Shown here one piece after another: positions 2,850-7,481 of a stretch of DNA of 10,215 bases. The DNA comes from Alphaproteobacteria bacterium (lineage in GTDB: Bacteria; Pseudomonadota; Alphaproteobacteria; Rs-D84): positions 1 through 10,215 of the forward strand of contig WQVP01000007.1 of NCBI GenBank assembly GCA_009785765.1, written 5' to 3'. How positions within the stretch are numbered: the first letter of the stretch is position 1; each line of letters begins with the position of its first letter. Below the pieces are notes generated by a model. The model did no database searches. It was not told the DNA's origin and saw only the letters and a list, made by a program, of their open reading frames with translations. The translations under genes were made by a program, and so were the position numbers.

Positions 2850-2876
2850 TTCTATGTCGTGAATATGTCTCTTTTC
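2850..2876 (+). repeat. Diverged third copy of the TATGTC...ATATGTCT repeat
   Basis: On the plus strand TCTATGTCGTGAATATGTCT (2851-2870) followed by CTTTTC aligns without gaps to the reverse complements of the repeats at 7457-7481 and 6410-6434. I count about 6 differences over 29 positions against the 7457 copy. It overlaps the stop codon of the hydrolase gene. Relative to that gene it has the same downstream orientation that the 7457 copy has relative to the DUF2797 gene. Confidence 0.5.
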
Positions 2877-3465
2877 AAATTTTCAACTCTGAAATAAGTT
2901 GCCCAACAGACCAGTTTGTGTGAGTTGTTCCGGGTATGATTTTATAATTTAATCCAACTCCAATACCTATCAACTTTTCATAAGATTGTAGACGGGATTC
3001 ATTTAATGTATCATCTTCTTCAGCCTGTAACCAATTTATAATAAAGTCGGTGTGTGGATTTTCAGGCAGCGGAAATGATGGTGATATGTCTGCGCCCCAA
3101 ACGACTACATTTTTTGCGCCATATTTTAATGCCATACGCATTGCCATATCCCCCCCCTGCGATTGCCCAGCCCAAATTATGTCATTTGGAATTTTGTCTG
3201 CACCTACAATCTTGTGTGTTTCTGTTTCAATGTGCTCTATTGACTTGTTAAATTCAACTATAGCTTCCTCAATAGGCTGTTTATTTCCATTGTGCCAGCG
3301 GTTGCCTTTCTCTCTATGTGGGTTCGGCGCATCAATACAAAAAAGTTCCGCACCCATATGTTCCGCCAACTGTTTAACAGGTGCATATAACTCGTTAGAC
3401 GAGGCACATCCTTTGCCATGTAAAAATATCATTTTTGTCTTTTTCATATTTGAAATTATAGTCAT
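2875..3465 (-). CDS. Small alpha/beta hydrolase (carboxylesterase/phospholipase-like)
   Basis: The product is 196 residues with no signal peptide, so cytoplasmic. It has the core of the alpha/beta hydrolase fold. The oxyanion-hole HGKG is at 16-19 after a hydrophobic strand (KMIFL). The nucleophile elbow G-Q-S-Q-G-G is at 100-105, making Ser102 the catalytic serine. The likely acid is Asp151 or Asp152, and His182 (PGTTHTN) is the catalytic histidine. Order and size fit the Abhydrolase_2 (phospholipase/carboxylesterase) group; the substrate is unknown. The ATG at 3465 has GGA about 6 bases upstream. An internal ATG at 3447 (MKKTKM) lacks a ribosome site. A perfect TGTCC/GGACA palindrome lies 31 bases upstream. 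The gene looks more AT-rich than the flanking Cys-rich genes, consistent with acquisition. It is probably its own transcription unit, ended by the hairpins at 2780-2836. Confidence 0.88.
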   Translation of the reverse strand: MTIISNMKKTKMIFLHGKGCASSNELYAPVKQLAEHMGAELFCIDAPNPHREKGNRWHNGNKQPIEEAIVEFNKSIEHIETETHKIVGADKIPNDIIWAGQSQGGDMAMRMALKYGAKNVVVWGADISPSFPLPENPHTDFIINWLQAEEDDTLNESRLQSYEKLIGIGVGLNYKIIPGTTHTNWSVGQLISELKI

Positions 3466-3495
3466 AATTTTCCATAAAATAAAGTCTAAAAACTT

Positions 3496-3519
3496 ACTTG
3501 TCCTTTATAAAGGACAAGT
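3496..3519. promoter_or_regulatory. Perfect 24-bp palindrome, TTGTCC-TTTATAAA-GGACAA core
   Basis: The site reads ACTTGTCCTTTA and then its exact reverse complement. It lies between the stop of the cupin gene (3526) and the start of the hydrolase gene (3465). It is the longest member of the TGTCC-NN-TATA-NN-GGACA family in this window. The half-site TTGTCC resembles a -35 hexamer on either strand, but I see no convincing -10 at the right distance for the hydrolase. It is a probable operator for a dimeric regulator. In RNA it could fold as a 9-10 bp stem closed by the TATA centre. Confidence 0.65.
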
Positions 3520-3525
3520 CCGCAC

Positions 3526-3873
3526 CTAACTTAAATTCACATCATTTTCAATATTGAATGCAGGCATCATTACTTGTACAGCTCTGAAACTTCCTTTGAA
3601 AGAAAAGAAAGTGTCTTTTTCTATAAACAAAACATCGCCATCATTTATAGATATTTTGTTGTCTTCTATTTCAAAAGTCGCATCAGCAGAAATAAAGTAA
3701 TAAAAACGATCACTTGCGATGTTTTTCGTAGGCTCATGTTCGCCGTTTGTTAATTCTACAACAACGATACTAAACTTTTTGTCAAAATCTTTTGTAAGAT
3801 AATTTTTAATAAAATATTCGGAATTGTGATTGTGATTTGTTGTTTCATTTTCTTTTACAAGCTTATACTTCAT
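3526..3873 (-). CDS. Small single-domain cupin-like protein
   Basis: The product is 115 residues, has no signal peptide and is probably cytoplasmic. The middle and C-terminal part reads as a cupin barrel: strand SIVVVEL (35-41), then SDRFYYFISADATFEI (54-69), ISINDGDVLFIEKDTFFSF (74-92) with the characteristic G-D turn (79-80), and a final VQVMMP strand. The usual metal-binding HxH and Glu of cupin motif 1 are not obvious. The His run at 14-16 is outside the barrel, so the protein may be a sugar- or ligand-binding or isomerase-type cupin rather than a dioxygenase. The function is not assignable. The start at 3873 has a clear AAGGGG seven bases upstream. It lies between the truncated GNAT gene and the hydrolase gene on the same strand, with a decayed palindrome just upstream. 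Confidence 0.8.
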   Translation of the reverse strand: MKYKLVKENETTNHNHNSEYFIKNYLTKDFDKKFSIVVVELTNGEHEPTKNIASDRFYYFISADATFEIEDNKISINDGDVLFIEKDTFFSFKGSFRAVQVMMPAFNIENDVNLS

Positions 3874-3900
3874 GCTTTACCCCTTGCAGTTATTGATTGT

Positions 3901-3922
3901 GTGCCCAATATATGCGGACAAC
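3901..3922. promoter_or_regulatory. Decayed copy of the TGTCC/GGACA palindrome
   Basis: On the minus strand the left half GTTGTCC and the ATATATTGG centre are intact, but the right half is broken and one base is gained (GTTGTCCGCATATATTGGGC). The site fills the gap between the truncated GNAT stop (3923) and the cupin ribosome site. It therefore sits where a promoter or operator for the cupin gene would be expected. Confidence 0.45.
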
Positions 3923-4228
3923 TTATTTTCTTGCCTCTGCGGCTAGTTTTATATCAAACAAATTTAATAAACGCAATATGGTTACAAACTCTGGATTACC
4001 TTTGATGCGAAGTTTTTCATCAATCCAAAGATCAGACAAATAGAACCATTTATTGCGATACATCAGGCCAGTTGCAACCCCAATAATTTTGCCATTTTCA
4101 TCATCAACAGTTACATTAAGTCGCTGTGTATCGGACGGCGCAATACCATATTTAACCTCAATCGCTCGGAAATCATCCTGGATCATTTGGTGCTCTTCTT
4201 TGGTTATATCGCGTTTTGTTATTTTCAT
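3923..4228 (-). CDS. Truncated GNAT-type acetyltransferase
   Basis: The product is 101 residues. The N-terminal half looks like a GNAT N-acetyltransferase: MKITKRDITKEEH start, then strand NVTVDDENGKIIGVATGLMY (38-57), then the strand and loop WFYLSDLWIDEKLRIKG (61-77). In GNAT enzymes this last strand leads into the acetyl-CoA P-loop (R/Q-x-x-G-x-G/A). Here the sequence changes after LRIKG to NPEFVTILRLLNLFDIKLAAEARK and stops. The pyrophosphate loop and the second half of the fold (about 40-50 residues) are missing. It is probably a pseudogene or remnant from a 3' deletion or rearrangement, although the frame is open with a usable start. The gene lies 10 bases after the NUDIX stop, with a GAG ribosome site in that gap, so the two form an operon. 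Substrate unknown. Confidence 0.72.
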   Translation of the reverse strand: MKITKRDITKEEHQMIQDDFRAIEVKYGIAPSDTQRLNVTVDDENGKIIGVATGLMYRNKWFYLSDLWIDEKLRIKGNPEFVTILRLLNLFDIKLAAEARK

Positions 4229-4238
4229 AGCTTGCTCT

Positions 4239-4751
4239 TTATATTGCTATTTTATCTAATAATAATTGTAATTCTTCTAGTGCTATGGCTCTAAATTCAT
4301 CGTCTTGAGATTGTATACGTGACACAATTTCTGTAATAGTGAAAAATTTTATTTCGGTCGCTTCGACTGGATCAAACTTAAATTCAGACAACGGTAAGTC
4401 TATGCGAACAATATAACAATCAAAAAATTCTTTTCCTTTATAATAGGTTAACTGTCCTATGTAATCAAAAGATTCTTTTGTAAGTTCAACTCCTAATTCT
4501 TCAACCGTTTCACGCATAGCGGTATCAAGAGCAGTGTCGCCAGCCATAACGTGACCGATTACAGAATTCGCCCAACTGTTCGGATATGACTTATGTGGTA
4601 CCCGACGCTGTAGTAATATTTCATCATTGCTGTTAATAATCCAAACACATGCCGCACGGTGCCAATCGCCATCGTTGTGAACATCTGTACGAGATTTTAC
4701 TGTGCCTGTTTTTTTGCCGCTTTCATCCAAAACATCAATATATTCTGTCAT
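4239..4751 (-). CDS. NUDIX hydrolase, isopentenyl-diphosphate-isomerase-like subgroup
   Basis: The product is 170 residues and cytoplasmic. The N-terminus MTEYIDVLDESGKKTGTV followed by HRAACVWIIN and LLQRR is the usual opening of the IPP-isomerase-like/YfcD-like NUDIX group. The Nudix box spans 66-88 (GHVMAG-D-TALDTAM-RETVEELGV). R80, E81, E84 and E85 are present for Mg-pyrophosphate binding. The first conserved Glu of the box is Asp72, a conservative change. YPNSWANSVIGH is also typical of the group. The expected activity is Mg-dependent hydrolysis of a nucleoside-diphosphate-linked substrate; which one cannot be told. The start at 4751 has a strong AGGAG six to seven bases upstream. It is the first gene of a two-gene operon with the truncated GNAT, and a perfect palindrome lies 66 bases upstream. 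Confidence 0.88.
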   Translation of the reverse strand: MTEYIDVLDESGKKTGTVKSRTDVHNDGDWHRAACVWIINSNDEILLQRRVPHKSYPNSWANSVIGHVMAGDTALDTAMRETVEELGVELTKESFDYIGQLTYYKGKEFFDCYIVRIDLPLSEFKFDPVEATEIKFFTITEIVSRIQSQDDEFRAIALEELQLLLDKIAI

Positions 4752-4817
4752 TAAGCTCTCCTGTAATTATTCCCAGAGCATAGATACTTTTGATTCAAAA
4801 ATCCAGTCTAAATACAA

Positions 4818-4839
4818 GTTGTCCAATATATTGGACAAC
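4818..4839. promoter_or_regulatory. Perfect 22-bp palindrome GTTGTCCAATA/TATTGGACAAC
   Basis: An exact inverted repeat with no spacer, in the 150-base leader between the LysM terminator and the NUDIX start. On the minus strand a TATGAT -10-like element lies just upstream (near 4846-4851), so the palindrome would cover the transcription start, a classic repressor position. TTGTCC could alternatively serve as a -35 to a weak TATTTA at an 18-base spacing. Which applies cannot be decided from sequence. Confidence 0.65.
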
Positions 4840-4876
4840 CAGTTATCATAGCACATAATAAATTAGTTCTCAGTTC

Positions 4877-4903
4877 AAAAAATCCCGCATGGCGGGATTT
4901 TTT
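4877..4903 (-). terminator. Intrinsic terminator of the LysM gene
   Basis: A perfect 12-bp inverted repeat AAAAAATCCCGC-atg-GCGGGATTTTTT, with a T-tract on either strand. It overlaps the last codon and stop of the LysM gene (stop at 4902-4904). It is symmetric, so it could also stop transcripts from the other direction. Confidence 0.85.
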
Positions 4904-6149
4904 ATCTGATGGGTATTCTTAATCTTTGATTTGGGAATATAAGATCTGGGTTTCTTATTTCCGGATTTGCATCAACTATCATTGTAAAACGTGTACCACG
5001 CCCAAGGAAATTACGTGCAATAATCCATAATGCATCACCTCTGCGCACTGTGTAATATGTGGCATCGCCCGGTGTGATTTCTGGCATTGTAAATTCGTGT
5101 ACGACCTCTGCAACTGTTGTGCCGCTTGTGTCATGTAAACGAATTTTTAAACGATATGTTTCGCCCGGATTTAATGGCTGGGTCGGTACGCCCAACATAA
5201 AGTTCCGGTGATCAGACGTTCTTGCAAAGCCAAGCTCTGTATCATTTAATGTCAACGTCACACGAAGACGTGGTATTGCACGACCTGTTACAACTATGCG
5301 ATTATTTTCCAAGTAATCAATTGTGCGCACGACAAGGTCGCCATCAGACAAAGTTGGTGCCTGCATAACACGTGATCCATCCGCCGTCATTAATAATGAC
5401 AATGCACCGGCAAAATTTCTGTCAGACGGAATATATACAAATACATTGTTTTCAGATTGACGTCCGGCCTCAACCGCAATTAATCTTATGATGTGATTAC
5501 CTGGGTTTAATGGGCGGCTTGGTGCGTATACAAATTCTCCGCGGCGGTCGGCGTTTTCGGTTGCGACGATTTGACGGTTAATCATAATGGATACTTTTTG
5601 GTTCGGCAAATAACGGCCGGCCACAATTAAATTTCCGTTTTGTTCAATGCGAACAACGTCAAAAGACGGCAATACAACTTCGCCGATAACACGAACGGTG
5701 GGTTCTGCGATACCATCAATTTGTTGTTCAATTGGTTGTGCGACGACGGTTTTGACCGTGCGCTCTGTGCGTTCAGATGATGGGATAATTGCCCAAATCA
5801 CAAGCGCAAGTATTGCAACAACGCAAAGGATTGGAAACCAATAATCTTTGATATTAAAACCACCGCCAAGTATGCGAACAGGCGGGCGATTAACGTCGTT
5901 TTTTACGGCGGACGGTTGTACAACTGGCTTTATAACGATTGGCTTTGGTGCTGGCGCAGGCGTTGGTGCGGATTTTGTTTTTTGCACTTCTGATATCCTT
6001 TTTTCTGGATTGCTTACCGCCGGAGTACTTGGACGATTTTTACGCCACAAAGCCGCAATACGACTGTGTTTTGCCAATGCTTCTTCCATGATTTCTTCGG
6101 TCGTTTTTTTGACTTTTCCCATTCTTGCGAATCTTGTATCTTTTGCCAT
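4902..6149 (-). CDS. Inner-membrane-anchored Ig-like/LysM peptidoglycan-binding protein
   Basis: The product is 415 residues. Residues 1-60 are charged and cytoplasmic, followed by a Pro/Ala linker (61-90). A single membrane helix spans 103-123 (YWFPILCVVAILALVIWAII). Two Ig-like beta repeats follow: 165-225 (VVRIEQNGNLIVAGRYLP...LNPGNHIIRL) and 273-340 (VVRTIDYLENNRIVVTGRAIP...LNPGETYRLKIRL). A C-terminal LysM domain occupies 366-413 (YTVRRGDALWIIARNFLG...ANPEIRNPDLIFPNQRLRIP). The topology is N-in with the LysM domain in the periplasm binding peptidoglycan glycan strands. The architecture matches a family known from alphaproteobacteria. No catalytic domain is visible, so the role is structural or in wall attachment. 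The start at 6149 has AAAGGA about 9 bases upstream. It is monocistronic, with its own promoter (6216-6244) and terminator. Confidence 0.92.
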   Translation of the reverse strand: MAKDTRFARMGKVKKTTEEIMEEALAKHSRIAALWRKNRPSTPAVSNPEKRISEVQKTKSAPTPAPAPKPIVIKPVVQPSAVKNDVNRPPVRILGGGFNIKDYWFPILCVVAILALVIWAIIPSSERTERTVKTVVAQPIEQQIDGIAEPTVRVIGEVVLPSFDVVRIEQNGNLIVAGRYLPNQKVSIMINRQIVATENADRRGEFVYAPSRPLNPGNHIIRLIAVEAGRQSENNVFVYIPSDRNFAGALSLLMTADGSRVMQAPTLSDGDLVVRTIDYLENNRIVVTGRAIPRLRVTLTLNDTELGFARTSDHRNFMLGVPTQPLNPGETYRLKIRLHDTSGTTVAEVVHEFTMPEITPGDATYYTVRRGDALWIIARNFLGRGTRFTMIVDANPEIRNPDLIFPNQRLRIPIR

Positions 6150-6215
6150 TTTTGCGGTCCTTTATATCTTTATTTATATAAGGCCTCTCTCCGCATCCCT
6201 GATATTATTGCCCAA

Positions 6216-6244
6216 ATATTACACAAAAACATTCTATTTGTCAA
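6216..6244 (-). promoter_or_regulatory. Sigma70-type promoter of the LysM gene
   Basis: On the minus strand there is a consensus TTGACA (6244-6239), a 17-base spacer and TAATAT (6221-6216), preceded by TGTG. Transcription would start near 6209 and give a leader of about 60 bases. This is the best promoter match in the window. It carries no TGTCC/GGACA palindrome. Confidence 0.75.
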
Positions 6245-6253
6245 GCAAATAAA

Positions 6254-6278
6254 ACCCCGCACTGCGGGGTAATTTTTT
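6254..6278. terminator. Hairpin terminator upstream of the LysM promoter
   Basis: An 8-bp stem ACCCCGCA-c-TGCGGGGT is followed on the plus strand by AATTTTTT and on the minus strand by TTTATTT. It lies immediately upstream of the LysM -35 and would insulate that promoter. No obvious gene ends into it from either side within the window. Confidence 0.7.
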
Positions 6279-6283
6279 ATAGT

Positions 6284-6345
6284 TCCACACTTTGGTGGCG
6301 AGACGCGCCCTTATTGGGCGACAAGCGCACGGACTGTCCATTACA
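6284..6345. other. GC-rich non-coding patch with small hairpins
   Basis: The 388-base gap 6150-6537 holds the LysM promoter, a terminator, this GC-rich patch and repeat or palindrome elements. The patch stands out from its AT-rich surroundings. It contains CCAC-ACTTTG-GTGG, CGCCC-TTATT-GGGCG (6306-6320) and GGACTGTCC. No tRNA T-arm and no convincing coding frame could be recognised. It may be an RNA element or the remnant of a lost gene. Confidence 0.3.
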
Positions 6346-6409
6346 ACGCGACTACCATATCTGCTCTAATATGTAAGAATATGTATAGAATGGTATTTCT
6401 GCATGTTGT

Positions 6410-6434
6410 AAAAAGACATATACGGGACATAAGA
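6410..6434 (+). repeat. Direct repeat flanking the DUF2797 gene, left copy
   Basis: AAAAAGACATATACG followed by GGACATAAGA matches the copy at 7457-7481 with 2 differences in 25 bases. The two copies, 1047 bases apart, bracket the DUF2797 gene and both of its palindromes. The part TATAcgGGACA equals one half of the TGTCC-NN-TATA-NN-GGACA palindrome family. Confidence 0.65.
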
Positions 6435-6468
6435 CCACCGACACCACACTGACAAATAAAAATAACTC

Positions 6469-6490
6469 TTTGTCCTTTATAAAGGATAAG
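6469..6490. promoter_or_regulatory. Near-perfect palindrome upstream of DUF2797 gene, possible -35
   Basis: The site reads TTTGTCCTTTA followed by TAAAGGATAAG and differs from the 3496-3519 core at two positions. On the plus strand TTGTCC (6470-6475) is 16 bases from GATAAA (6492-6497), so it could be the -35 of the DUF2797 promoter. Binding of a regulator would then block the promoter. The gene starts at 6538, leaving a leader of about 35 bases. Confidence 0.55.
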
Positions 6491-6537
6491 TGATAAATTT
6501 GCTTTATTTTTACCGTTGTTACGGATATACTTTTGTC

Positions 6538-7425
6538 ATGAAAAATGATATTCAATTTCTTGGTATAAAATGGGCAAACGGGACACCGAAATTTATGTTG
6601 GCGAATGATGATGGGTTATATTTTGATAATATACCTGATATATTGAATATTTCCATAACTAAAACAAAAAAATGCTCAGGGTATTATGATTTAGAAAAAC
6701 GAGAATATAAATCATGCCCAAATAAAGTCGATATGACTGAATCTGATTTTGCACAATGTAAACAATGTCGCGATGCTAATGGGTTTGGTTTATGCCTTGG
6801 TTGTAATGGTGGAATTTGCCGTGCGGATAATAAACACGGATTAGCGTTTTGTAATCAGCCGCATATTGTGTATTTGGCTTTATTCCCAAATGATAAGTTC
6901 AAAGTTGGAACCGCCACCGAATATCGCAGCCTTACGCGAATGTATGAACAAGGGGCGATATGTTCAGTATTTTTTGCAAAAGCCCCAAATGGCAGAATTG
7001 CACGGCAGATAGAACAAGCGGCATCAGAACTGGATATATCAAAAAATATGAATTCAAGTTATAAAATGAAAAATCTGATTTTTGATTCAGATTTGCAGAA
7101 TATCCAACAACAACTAATGCAAAAATTAAACAAAGTGCGTTACAGATTATCTGAATTTTCAGAATACTTCATAGAACCAGAATATAACGTCTTTTCTGAA
7201 ATTTATAATAAAATCTACAATAATCTGACGGAAAAGCAAACTGCAGATTTATTTGGAGAATCAAAAATAACAATTAAACCGTATGATGTTTTAACCGATG
7301 TTTCAGAAATAACTGGAAACTTAAAGTCAGTTATGGGTGAGCTTTTGCTAACTGAAAAAAACGGAACAATTAAGGTTATAAATGCAAAACCTTTGATTGG
7401 ATTTGTTATAAATATGAGTAATTAA
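6538..7425 (+). CDS. DUF2797-family zinc-cysteine protein
   Basis: The product is 295 residues with no signal peptide. It resembles DUF2797. The N-terminal beta part (QFLGIKWANGTPKFML) is followed by a Cys cluster: C46, C60, C74-x2-C77, C86-x2-C89, C94 and C105, a probable zinc site. Then comes the hallmark CNQPHIVYLALFPNDKFKVGTA (105-126) with RMYEQGA (134-140) and a later Ile-Glu helix (IARQIEQ). The 'VYLALF...KVGTA...R' run is reminiscent of GIY-YIG-type folds, but the catalytic residues are not clearly present. The molecular function of the family is unknown to me. I chose the ATG at 6538 because the family homology begins at once (MKNDIQFLGI). A GTG at 6490 would add 16 hydrophobic residues. 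The gene looks AT-rich compared with its neighbours and is flanked by palindromes and direct repeats on both sides. Confidence 0.82.
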   Translation: MKNDIQFLGIKWANGTPKFMLANDDGLYFDNIPDILNISITKTKKCSGYYDLEKREYKSCPNKVDMTESDFAQCKQCRDANGFGLCLGCNGGICRADNKHGLAFCNQPHIVYLALFPNDKFKVGTATEYRSLTRMYEQGAICSVFFAKAPNGRIARQIEQAASELDISKNMNSSYKMKNLIFDSDLQNIQQQLMQKLNKVRYRLSEFSEYFIEPEYNVFSEIYNKIYNNLTEKQTADLFGESKITIKPYDVLTDVSEITGNLKSVMGELLLTEKNGTIKVINAKPLIGFVINMSN

Positions 7426-7429
7426 ATAC

Positions 7430-7451
7430 ACTGTCTAATATATTAGACAGT
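7430..7451. promoter_or_regulatory. Perfect 22-bp palindrome ACTGTCTAATA/TATTAGACAGT
   Basis: An exact inverted repeat starting 5 bases after the DUF2797 stop. It belongs to the same family as the sites at 3496, 4818 and 6469, with compensating C-to-T and G-to-A changes in both halves. No gene starts near it on either strand (7425 and 7555 are convergent ends). Here it cannot be a simple promoter operator, and a 3'-end or boundary role is more likely. Confidence 0.6.
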
Positions 7452-7456
7452 TGCGA

Positions 7457-7481
7457 AAAAAGACATATACCGGACATAGGA
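7457..7481 (+). repeat. Direct repeat flanking the DUF2797 gene, right copy
   Basis: AAAAAGACATATACC followed by GGACATAGGA is the partner of 6410-6434 (23 of 25 identical). A diverged third copy lies inverted at 2850-2876. It directly follows the 7430-7451 palindrome. Confidence 0.65.

Follow-up and report, generated by a model that had tools for sequence, protein, structure and literature searches.

The window analysed here is the whole of contig WQVP01000007.1 (10,215 nucleotides; contig C7) of assembly GCA_009785765.1, an Alphaproteobacteria bacterium of the Rs-D84 lineage, whose genome comprises 512,778 bp in 102 contigs and is 54.6% complete. It carries a family of intergenic palindromes with the core TGTCY-NN-TATA-NN-RGACA, searched for with the 18-bp pattern TGTCYNNTATANNRGACA; letters 4-7 of a palindrome are here called its spelling. 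As reported in an initial annotation, four such palindromes are present, three perfect and one near-perfect. The first (3496..3519, perfect over 24 bp, spelling CCTT, core 3499-3516 = TGTCCTTTATAAAGGACA) has its core 33 bp upstream of the start of a hydrolase-like accessory gene (2875..3465, minus strand; its proline-iminopeptidase match is weak and stays below cut-off) and 9 bp behind the stop of a small accessory open reading frame (ORF; 3526..3873, minus strand), initially called a cupin and without a Pfam match at 1e-3. The second (4818..4839, perfect over 22 bp, CCAA) has its core 68 bp upstream of the start of an accessory NUDIX hydrolase gene (4239..4751, minus strand; PF00293, 57.4 bits) and 64 bp downstream of the stop of a LysM gene (4902-6149). 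The accessory DUF2797 gene (6538..7425, plus strand; PF10977, 67.2 bits) has a palindrome on each side: 6469..6490 (CCTT, two mismatched pairs over 22 bp, 18-bp core with one mismatch to the pattern) lies with its core 49 bp upstream of the ATG at 6538, and 7430..7451 (CTAA, perfect over 22 bp) with its core 6 bp downstream of the stop. The copies had initially been described as sitting just upstream of genes; 7430-7451, however, lies behind the DUF2797 stop, and 3496-3519 is also downstream of the stop of the supposed cupin.

A fifth element of the window is the remnant of a gene for a small antitoxin-like helix-turn-helix (HTH) protein, which in related genomes is encoded between two palindromes. 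The ORF at 3923..4228 (minus strand) is chimeric: its N-terminal part, initially called a GNAT protein, has no Pfam match, and its 3' end (3923..4012, minus strand) contains in frame the last 28-29 codons of the HTH gene. In BLASTP 23 of 28 residues are identical to the HTH copy of genome G015 (L041:7867-8172), and the profile of the HTH protein matches 3929-4012 with an E-value of 1e-9. Directly adjoining the stop codon of this remnant is the sequence 3901..3922, initially described as a decayed palindrome. By eye it differs from the CCAA spelling by at least one substitution and one inserted base; ungapped, it does not match the pattern even at 4 mismatches, so the assignment needs the inserted base, but it is supported by the position directly behind the remnant. 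To judge from the sequence, a complete HTH cassette was probably present here and was later truncated into the neighbouring gene. The window holds a set of cassette type: the hydrolase gene, the small ORF, the NUDIX gene and the DUF2797 gene with four palindromes around them, together with what is left of a lost antitoxin-like cassette.

The palindromes are genuine, and their number is far above chance expectation. In the window's own genome the pattern has 16 exact matches and 3 with one mismatch, compared with about 0.012 exact matches expected from base composition and none for the reversed pattern as control. At up to two mismatches there are 30 matches versus 10 for the reversed control, so that matches with two mismatches are mostly background. 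Exact copies are located on contigs C7, C23, C25, C29, C34, C52 and C65 and one-mismatch copies on C7, C52 and C83, so that the family is not confined to the accessory interval of the window, as had been thought, but extends to seven other contigs (that on C83 with one mismatch). Some of the copies on other contigs adjoin gpmI and grpE.

Matches were found in 18 of the 60 genomes searched (own genome included), 17 of them among the 36 genomes of the window's family and one, with a single copy, in another family; the reversed pattern gave one match across all 60 genomes. Within the genus the distribution is patchy, with 16, 29, 19, 0 and 44 sites per genome. Spellings are preferred by genome: CCTT accounts for 14 of 15 sites in G015, CCAA for 23 of 24 in G016 and CTAC for 8 of 10 in G010, which has in addition two CCAC/CTAC hybrids; G000, G001, G002, G004 and G008 contain mixtures. 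When 84,980 species genomes were scanned for one spelling group (TTGTCCWWTATAWWGGACAA), 68 stretches resulted; by their titles (Rickettsiales, Alphaproteobacteria or Proteobacteria bacterium) 46 of them come from metagenome-assembled genomes of the present bacterial group. The other 22 are single copies in other bacteria, among which Rudaea alone was looked at closely. To judge from the isolate prefixes Nt197P3, Lab288P3 and Cu122P5, the habitat of the relatives is presumably the termite gut.

The HTH protein has a length of about 101 amino acids and is encoded between two palindromes in seven genes of six genomes: L041 (G015), L031/L050 (G012), L120/L229 (G008), L097/L199 (G001), L167 and L169 (G004) and L025/L046 (G010). 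The flanking palindromes share one spelling in six of the seven cases. The core of the upstream palindrome is always 35-41 bp from the ATG, and that of the downstream palindrome is 3-20 bp from the stop in six of seven (the G001 copy with two mismatches); in G010 it is a CCAC/CTAC hybrid 65 bp from the stop. PF21716 (dnstrm_HI1420, probable addiction module antidote) is matched over cut-off by all three proteins tested, one of them barely (27.1 vs 27), and these three contain no other Pfam domain over cut-off. TIGR02684 is also matched, below its stricter cut-off. No toxin was seen beside the HTH gene among 10 array genes scanned against Pfam, which include the direct neighbours in G001, G004, G008 and G012 but not those in G010 and G015. 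Six of these 10 are over cut-off (a chorismate mutase, an Nmad3 protein, two APH-type kinases, a short-chain dehydrogenase and a serine hydrolase), and four have a weak match or none. Of 201 genomes of the order, six encode the full-length HTH protein at E-values up to 1e-15, and all six carry palindromes; their location exclusively among the 17 site-bearing of 36 family genomes has a chance probability of 0.006 if phylogeny is ignored. With an E-value limit of 1e-8 the profile matches 41 database proteins, among which are copies of several members of the seven, and a sequence search of the PDB gave nothing better than an E-value of 0.25.

All seven HTH genes have a palindrome at their promoter, which answers the question raised in the initial annotation of whether a regulator gene possesses its own copy. 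In each, the distance between a TATAAT and the TTGTCY in the upstream palindrome is exactly 17 bp, the palindrome supplying the -35 region (TTGTCY) and the spacer of the predicted promoter. An overlap with -35 region and spacer is the usual place for the operator of an autorepressor. The other 78 site-to-gene pairs contain a single perfect TATAAT, at 16 bp spacing, in front of the gene beside a G004 HTH gene.

The same palindrome type occurs in HI1419/HI1420 operons of other bacteria. A Rudaea operon (TIGR02683, 116 bits; TIGR02684, 97 bits) has an exact palindrome one base before the toxin ATG, and a viral contig contains the same toxin and palindrome. Sixteen plasmid regions with HI1420 relatives were picked by hand from 25 listed of 345 records; three lack a usable toxin start, and in three of the remaining 13 operons the toxin start is our own ORF pick. 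Ten of these 13 carry the string TGTNNNNTATANNNNACA, one mismatch being allowed, in the 130 bp upstream of the toxin, compared with 1 of 438 control windows from the same loci and none of 13 reversed upstream strings. This pattern was written after the first twelve regions had been seen; of four regions fetched after it was set, three match exactly and one does not. Because Rudaea and 10 of 13 plasmid operons carry it upstream of the toxin, the palindrome is, on the sequence comparison, of the operator type of the HI1420 antidote family. Plasmids pALWEK1.1 and pTS134338 (L342, L348) have HI1420-type operons with a perfect palindrome, TGTATTCGATCGAATACA, of the same length and ends and with GATC instead of TATA in the centre. 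Viral contigs gave five matches of one spelling group, one being a Rudaea-type operon. The viral contigs L148 (3597-3827) and L149 (1331-1348) contain the exact palindrome TGTCCATTATATTGGACA, and the L148 copy follows a small XRE-like HTH gene at a distance of 3 bp. Viral relatives of the HTH protein itself were found neither by profile scan nor in 50,697 phage records.

In the seven HTH genes the spelling goes along with the recognition helix. A helix start KS accompanies TGTCC and RP or RA accompanies TGTCT; FYK is paired with AC, and FYN with TT or AA. The N-terminal extensions of two database proteins are readable as in-frame palindromes and are as expected: LVLYKGQ in P0010 (CCTT; KS, FYN) and STIVDN in P0022 (CCAC or CTAC; KS, FYK). 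The correspondence is a lead, not a proven code.

Symmetry and placement were examined in eight genomes, copies with identical 48-bp context being counted once. As had been noticed in the window, the symmetry is kept despite the differences between copies: 132 of 169 exact-pattern sites are perfect palindromes, and in the five mixed-spelling genomes 99 of 134 exact sites are symmetric versus about 32 if the halves were independent. This excess is compatible with symmetric masters having been copied, with selection favouring symmetry in a binding site, or with the two together. Of 190 sites (exact or one mismatch) 151 are cleanly intergenic, 19 lie at an edge and 20 inside an ORF of at least 80 amino acids; gene calls are longest-ORF picks, some of these ORFs are probably not genes, and gene names given below as 'by eye' rest on no family search. 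The 151 intergenic sites consist of 90 tandem, 46 convergent and 15 divergent ones, with available lengths of 23.4, 9.9 and 8.4 kb; divergent, promoter-only space is under-used (15 sites versus 30 expected from its share of length). Distances to start and stop codons are indistinguishable from random placement within the intervals. A rule that palindromes hug stop codons looked strong in the window's genome (2, 4, 5, 6, 9 and 9 bp among 14) and was rejected, since it fails the placement test with 151 sites. Short arrays with a period of 33 bp (32 in G000) occur in L193 (1561, 1594, 1627, 1660), L197, L205 and L018. Among neighbouring palindromes at most 75 bp apart in the five mixed genomes, 24 of 30 pairs share no spelling.

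We consider it likely that the palindromes are operators of this HI1420-type (PF21716/TIGR02684) antitoxin-like HTH protein, which has no adjoining toxin. The dimeric regulator postulated in the initial annotation is thereby supported in kind and, as far as sequence comparison goes, has a named candidate. Several observations weigh against this assignment. The site-rich genomes G002 (19 sites, 97% complete) and G016 (24 sites, 78% complete) have no detected HTH gene, which shows that the repeats can outlive the gene or use another protein. Three of the 13 plasmid operons miss the pattern, namely two with identical Acinetobacter operators (GATC centre) and one on an E. coli plasmid (two mismatches), and some of the 13 are close relatives, which leaves fewer independent cases. 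The agreement between spelling and helix is drawn from seven related proteins and four spelling classes, and Rudaea (CCAT, with YK) breaks the FYK rule. Descent from symmetric master copies could also yield the symmetry excess, near-stop sites are not above chance (15 of 151 versus 19.5 expected), and because T-runs beside the sites are twice background some copies may act as terminators.

The initial annotation suggested a regulon, in which the autorepressor would control the palindrome-adjacent genes via operators near their start codons. The distances agree with it, both in the window (hydrolase 33 bp, NUDIX 68 bp, DUF2797 49 bp) and in the arrays L229, L167, L169, L199 and L050, where most genes have a palindrome 19-99 bp upstream and one operon has it at 197 bp. 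We nevertheless regard it as unlikely, and for most copies it is unsupported: a perfect -10 box at promoter spacing is confined to the HTH genes and one neighbour (1 of 78 other pairs), divergent regions hold fewer copies than expected, convergent genes flank 46 of the 151 copies, and G002 and G016 combine many sites with the lack of a detected HTH gene. A -10 box with five of six positions is no more frequent toward genes (16 of 84) than elsewhere (41 of 297; p 0.23); a general promoter rule was rejected on this test, and the perfect TATAAT at the HTH genes alone stands out.

Many copies lie in insertions of about 100-200 bp that are missing from sister genomes; some of these elements have inverted heptamer arms. 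Other copies bound gene-sized cassettes. In G002, G004 and G020 there is a 4-bp overlap between gpmI and tadA; in G008 and G000 the two genes are 108 bp and 176 bp apart, respectively, with a palindrome in the gap, and G001 and G003 have other neighbours there. For 16 of 102 intergenic intervals tried, the sampled stretches of a site-free sister (G020 or G003) contain the two neighbours together, and all 12 sister intervals inspected are without palindrome and, by eye, without arms; the sisters were chosen for having no exact site, and the informative part is the missing arms. In many copies from the window's genus and from G008, the palindrome forms the centre of a longer inverted repeat, imperfect and composed of 7-bp tandem repeats, the heptamers of which vary between loci and are complementary within a locus (L088, L018 310-359, L053, L193, L222 and others). 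An inverted-arm score of at least 18 is reached by 41 of 176 sites (20 of 31 in G008, none in G010, G015 and G016); random intergenic points reach it in 10 of 475 cases and mispaired flanks in 60 of 1489.

The region at the 3' end of grpE differs between genomes. G008 carries an HTH, a chorismate mutase and an AAA-like gene there, with four palindromes separating them and a 26-bp arm in two inverted copies around the whole; in G000 four palindromes accompany two genes, by eye for a methyltransferase and a transporter; in G001 there is no gene but a pair of palindromes 33 bp apart; the grpE loci fetched from G002 and G003 have no palindromes. The proteins of L169 1660-2337 (G004) and L042 4581-5261 (G015) are 62% identical (139/223), and their genes are near CCAC and CCTT palindromes, respectively. 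Reciprocal half-site hybrids around one insert were seen in G010 (L046 2910/2982), with no other clear pair. As a signature of cassette genes, the other possibility named initially, the palindromes qualify at several loci with palindrome-gene-palindrome arrays, but many copies are solo. In G004 an element of about 175 bp resembling a miniature inverted-repeat transposable element, with inverted ends GGGAWCTGTTAAGATAWTAG, carries two palindromes; complete copies are L170 911-1086 and L171 1536-1711, partial copies occur in L157, L159, L165 and L166, and several G004 contigs end in the element.

The features described so far recall the REPIN-RAYT system, and the palindromes might be hairpin elements of the repetitive extragenic palindrome (REP) type moved by a Y1 (RAYT-type) transposase, their likeness to antitoxin operators being secondary. 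REPIN-RAYT systems, as described in PMC3116915, share with them palindromic repeats outside genes, hairpin forms, more than one sequence type per genome, association with a protein gene and apparent co-evolution. The sites are mostly intergenic, multi-copy and of genome-specific type, with a repeat-flanked protein gene and long hairpin forms. We consider this origin improbable, since the repeat-flanked protein is the small antidote-like HTH protein (without other Pfam domain over cut-off in the three scanned), not a Y1 transposase. The domain Y1_Tnp was detected in 4 of 60 family genomes, namely G012 (4 sites), G017 (8 sites, match below cut-off) and the site-free G007 and G032, and is without match in G000, G001, G002, G004, G008, G010, G015 and G016, the eight genomes with at least 10 sites.

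It is very improbable that the palindromes are bidirectional intrinsic terminators sharing a stem by chance. Convergent regions are the most used per kb (46 sites in 9.9 kb), TTTT occurs within 12 nucleotides of 71 of 169 sites versus 149 of 758 controls, and five spellings give RNA hairpins of about -8 kcal/mol, but 98 of 169 sites have no such T-run, the same 18-bp cores have unrelated flanks, and the palindrome is present at the HTH promoter. Least credible of all is a role in recombination by a resolvase or integrase: the half-site agrees letter for letter with the gamma-delta resolvase consensus, TGTCYNNTA (a literature search for which gave no match), but the half-sites abut without the spacer of recombinase sites, PF00239 has no match in the site-bearing G000, G001, G002, G019 and G024 and matches in all nine site-free g11 genomes, and tyrosine recombinases occur in 27 of 27 genomes in counts of 1-5 unrelated to the sites. 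As moving agents the serine resolvase (PF00239), Y1 transposase (PF01797) and tyrosine recombinase (PF00589) were all rejected, none of them tracking the sites.

The LysM gene of the window is present in all six relatives searched, in five of them with a gene taken by eye for 6-phosphofructokinase on one side. The window's hydrolase, small ORF, NUDIX and DUF2797 genes were not found in the LysM loci of these relatives (about 1.5 kb on each side, less at contig ends), and, in the loci compared, the accessory proteins have no homologues near palindromes elsewhere except for the HTH tail. The window also contains two copies of a companion direct repeat of repeat family D14, at 6410..6434 (AAAAAGACATATACGGGACATAAGA) and 7457..7481, a motif that recurs near palindromes of other genera. 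Its consensus is KACATAnnnnnKACATAGRAATTT, the first base being G or T and often equal in both halves; 15 of 23 matches are at most 250 bp from a palindrome. It occurs in the window and in L041, L031, L110, L169 and L306, and one match lies in the site-free G003. Positions 2645-2800 of the window contain a heptamer-like run (CTAATAACTAATAGCTAATGGCTAATAAC) and an ATAGTTTTTTATAAAAACTAT hairpin without a palindrome of this family. Rfam gave no match in the window up to an E-value of 1.

On the reading of the palindromes as operators, the HTH protein would bind the palindrome as a dimer and repress its own gene. The operator with flanking DNA would then have become a small dispersed repeat, in the form of hairpin-like elements of about 100-200 bp or of boundaries of gene cassettes, and most copies would be bound, if at all, without controlling a promoter. 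Such an arrangement differs from the HI1419/HI1420 (TIGR02683/TIGR02684, HigBA-like) operons, which have an HTH protein of the same family and, in 10 of 13, the 18-bp TGT....TATA....ACA palindrome upstream of the toxin. Here no toxin gene is seen by the antidote-like gene, and intergenic copies of the operator, up to tens in number, are dispersed and genome-specific in spelling.

A further step is speculative, and we hold it to be rather doubtful: an antitoxin losing its toxin may have made its operator a mobile genomic address, so that operator-bounded cassettes could be captured and shuffled in hairpin elements in either orientation, with protein and site dialects of each lineage co-evolving and cassettes re-spelled or selected to match. 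This would be integron-like gene capture built on a repressor, not an integrase. One pair fits it directly, the 62% identical gene with CCAC in G004 and CCTT in G015. Integron cassettes are likewise arrays of single accessory genes (here of APH, chorismate mutase and Nmad3 types) separated by palindromic sites, but the present site is much shorter than attC and the genes lie in both orientations; no search was aimed at integron integrases. Gene modules bounded by short palindrome-containing sites are also known as pdif modules; PMC6449649 describes pdif as 28-bp sites with two 11-bp Xer arms and a 6-bp centre on Acinetobacter plasmids and chromosomes, whereas the palindromes reported here are symmetric over 18-24 bp with a fixed TATA centre and do not have this 28-bp dif-like structure.

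Among the matches listed in the literature search there is no paper on this repeat. A transposase is the usual explanation for repeats of the REP type; the present repeat can be traced to the operator of an antitoxin family, and with it come a candidate binding protein, a family-wide rule for the operator (TGT....TATA....ACA) and variants of protein and site that form a natural matched series. For HI1419/HI1420 modules this rule is of use in its own right, and the role of toxinless antitoxins, as well as the way in which the site of a regulator becomes a dispersed repeat and a cassette boundary, can now be tested.

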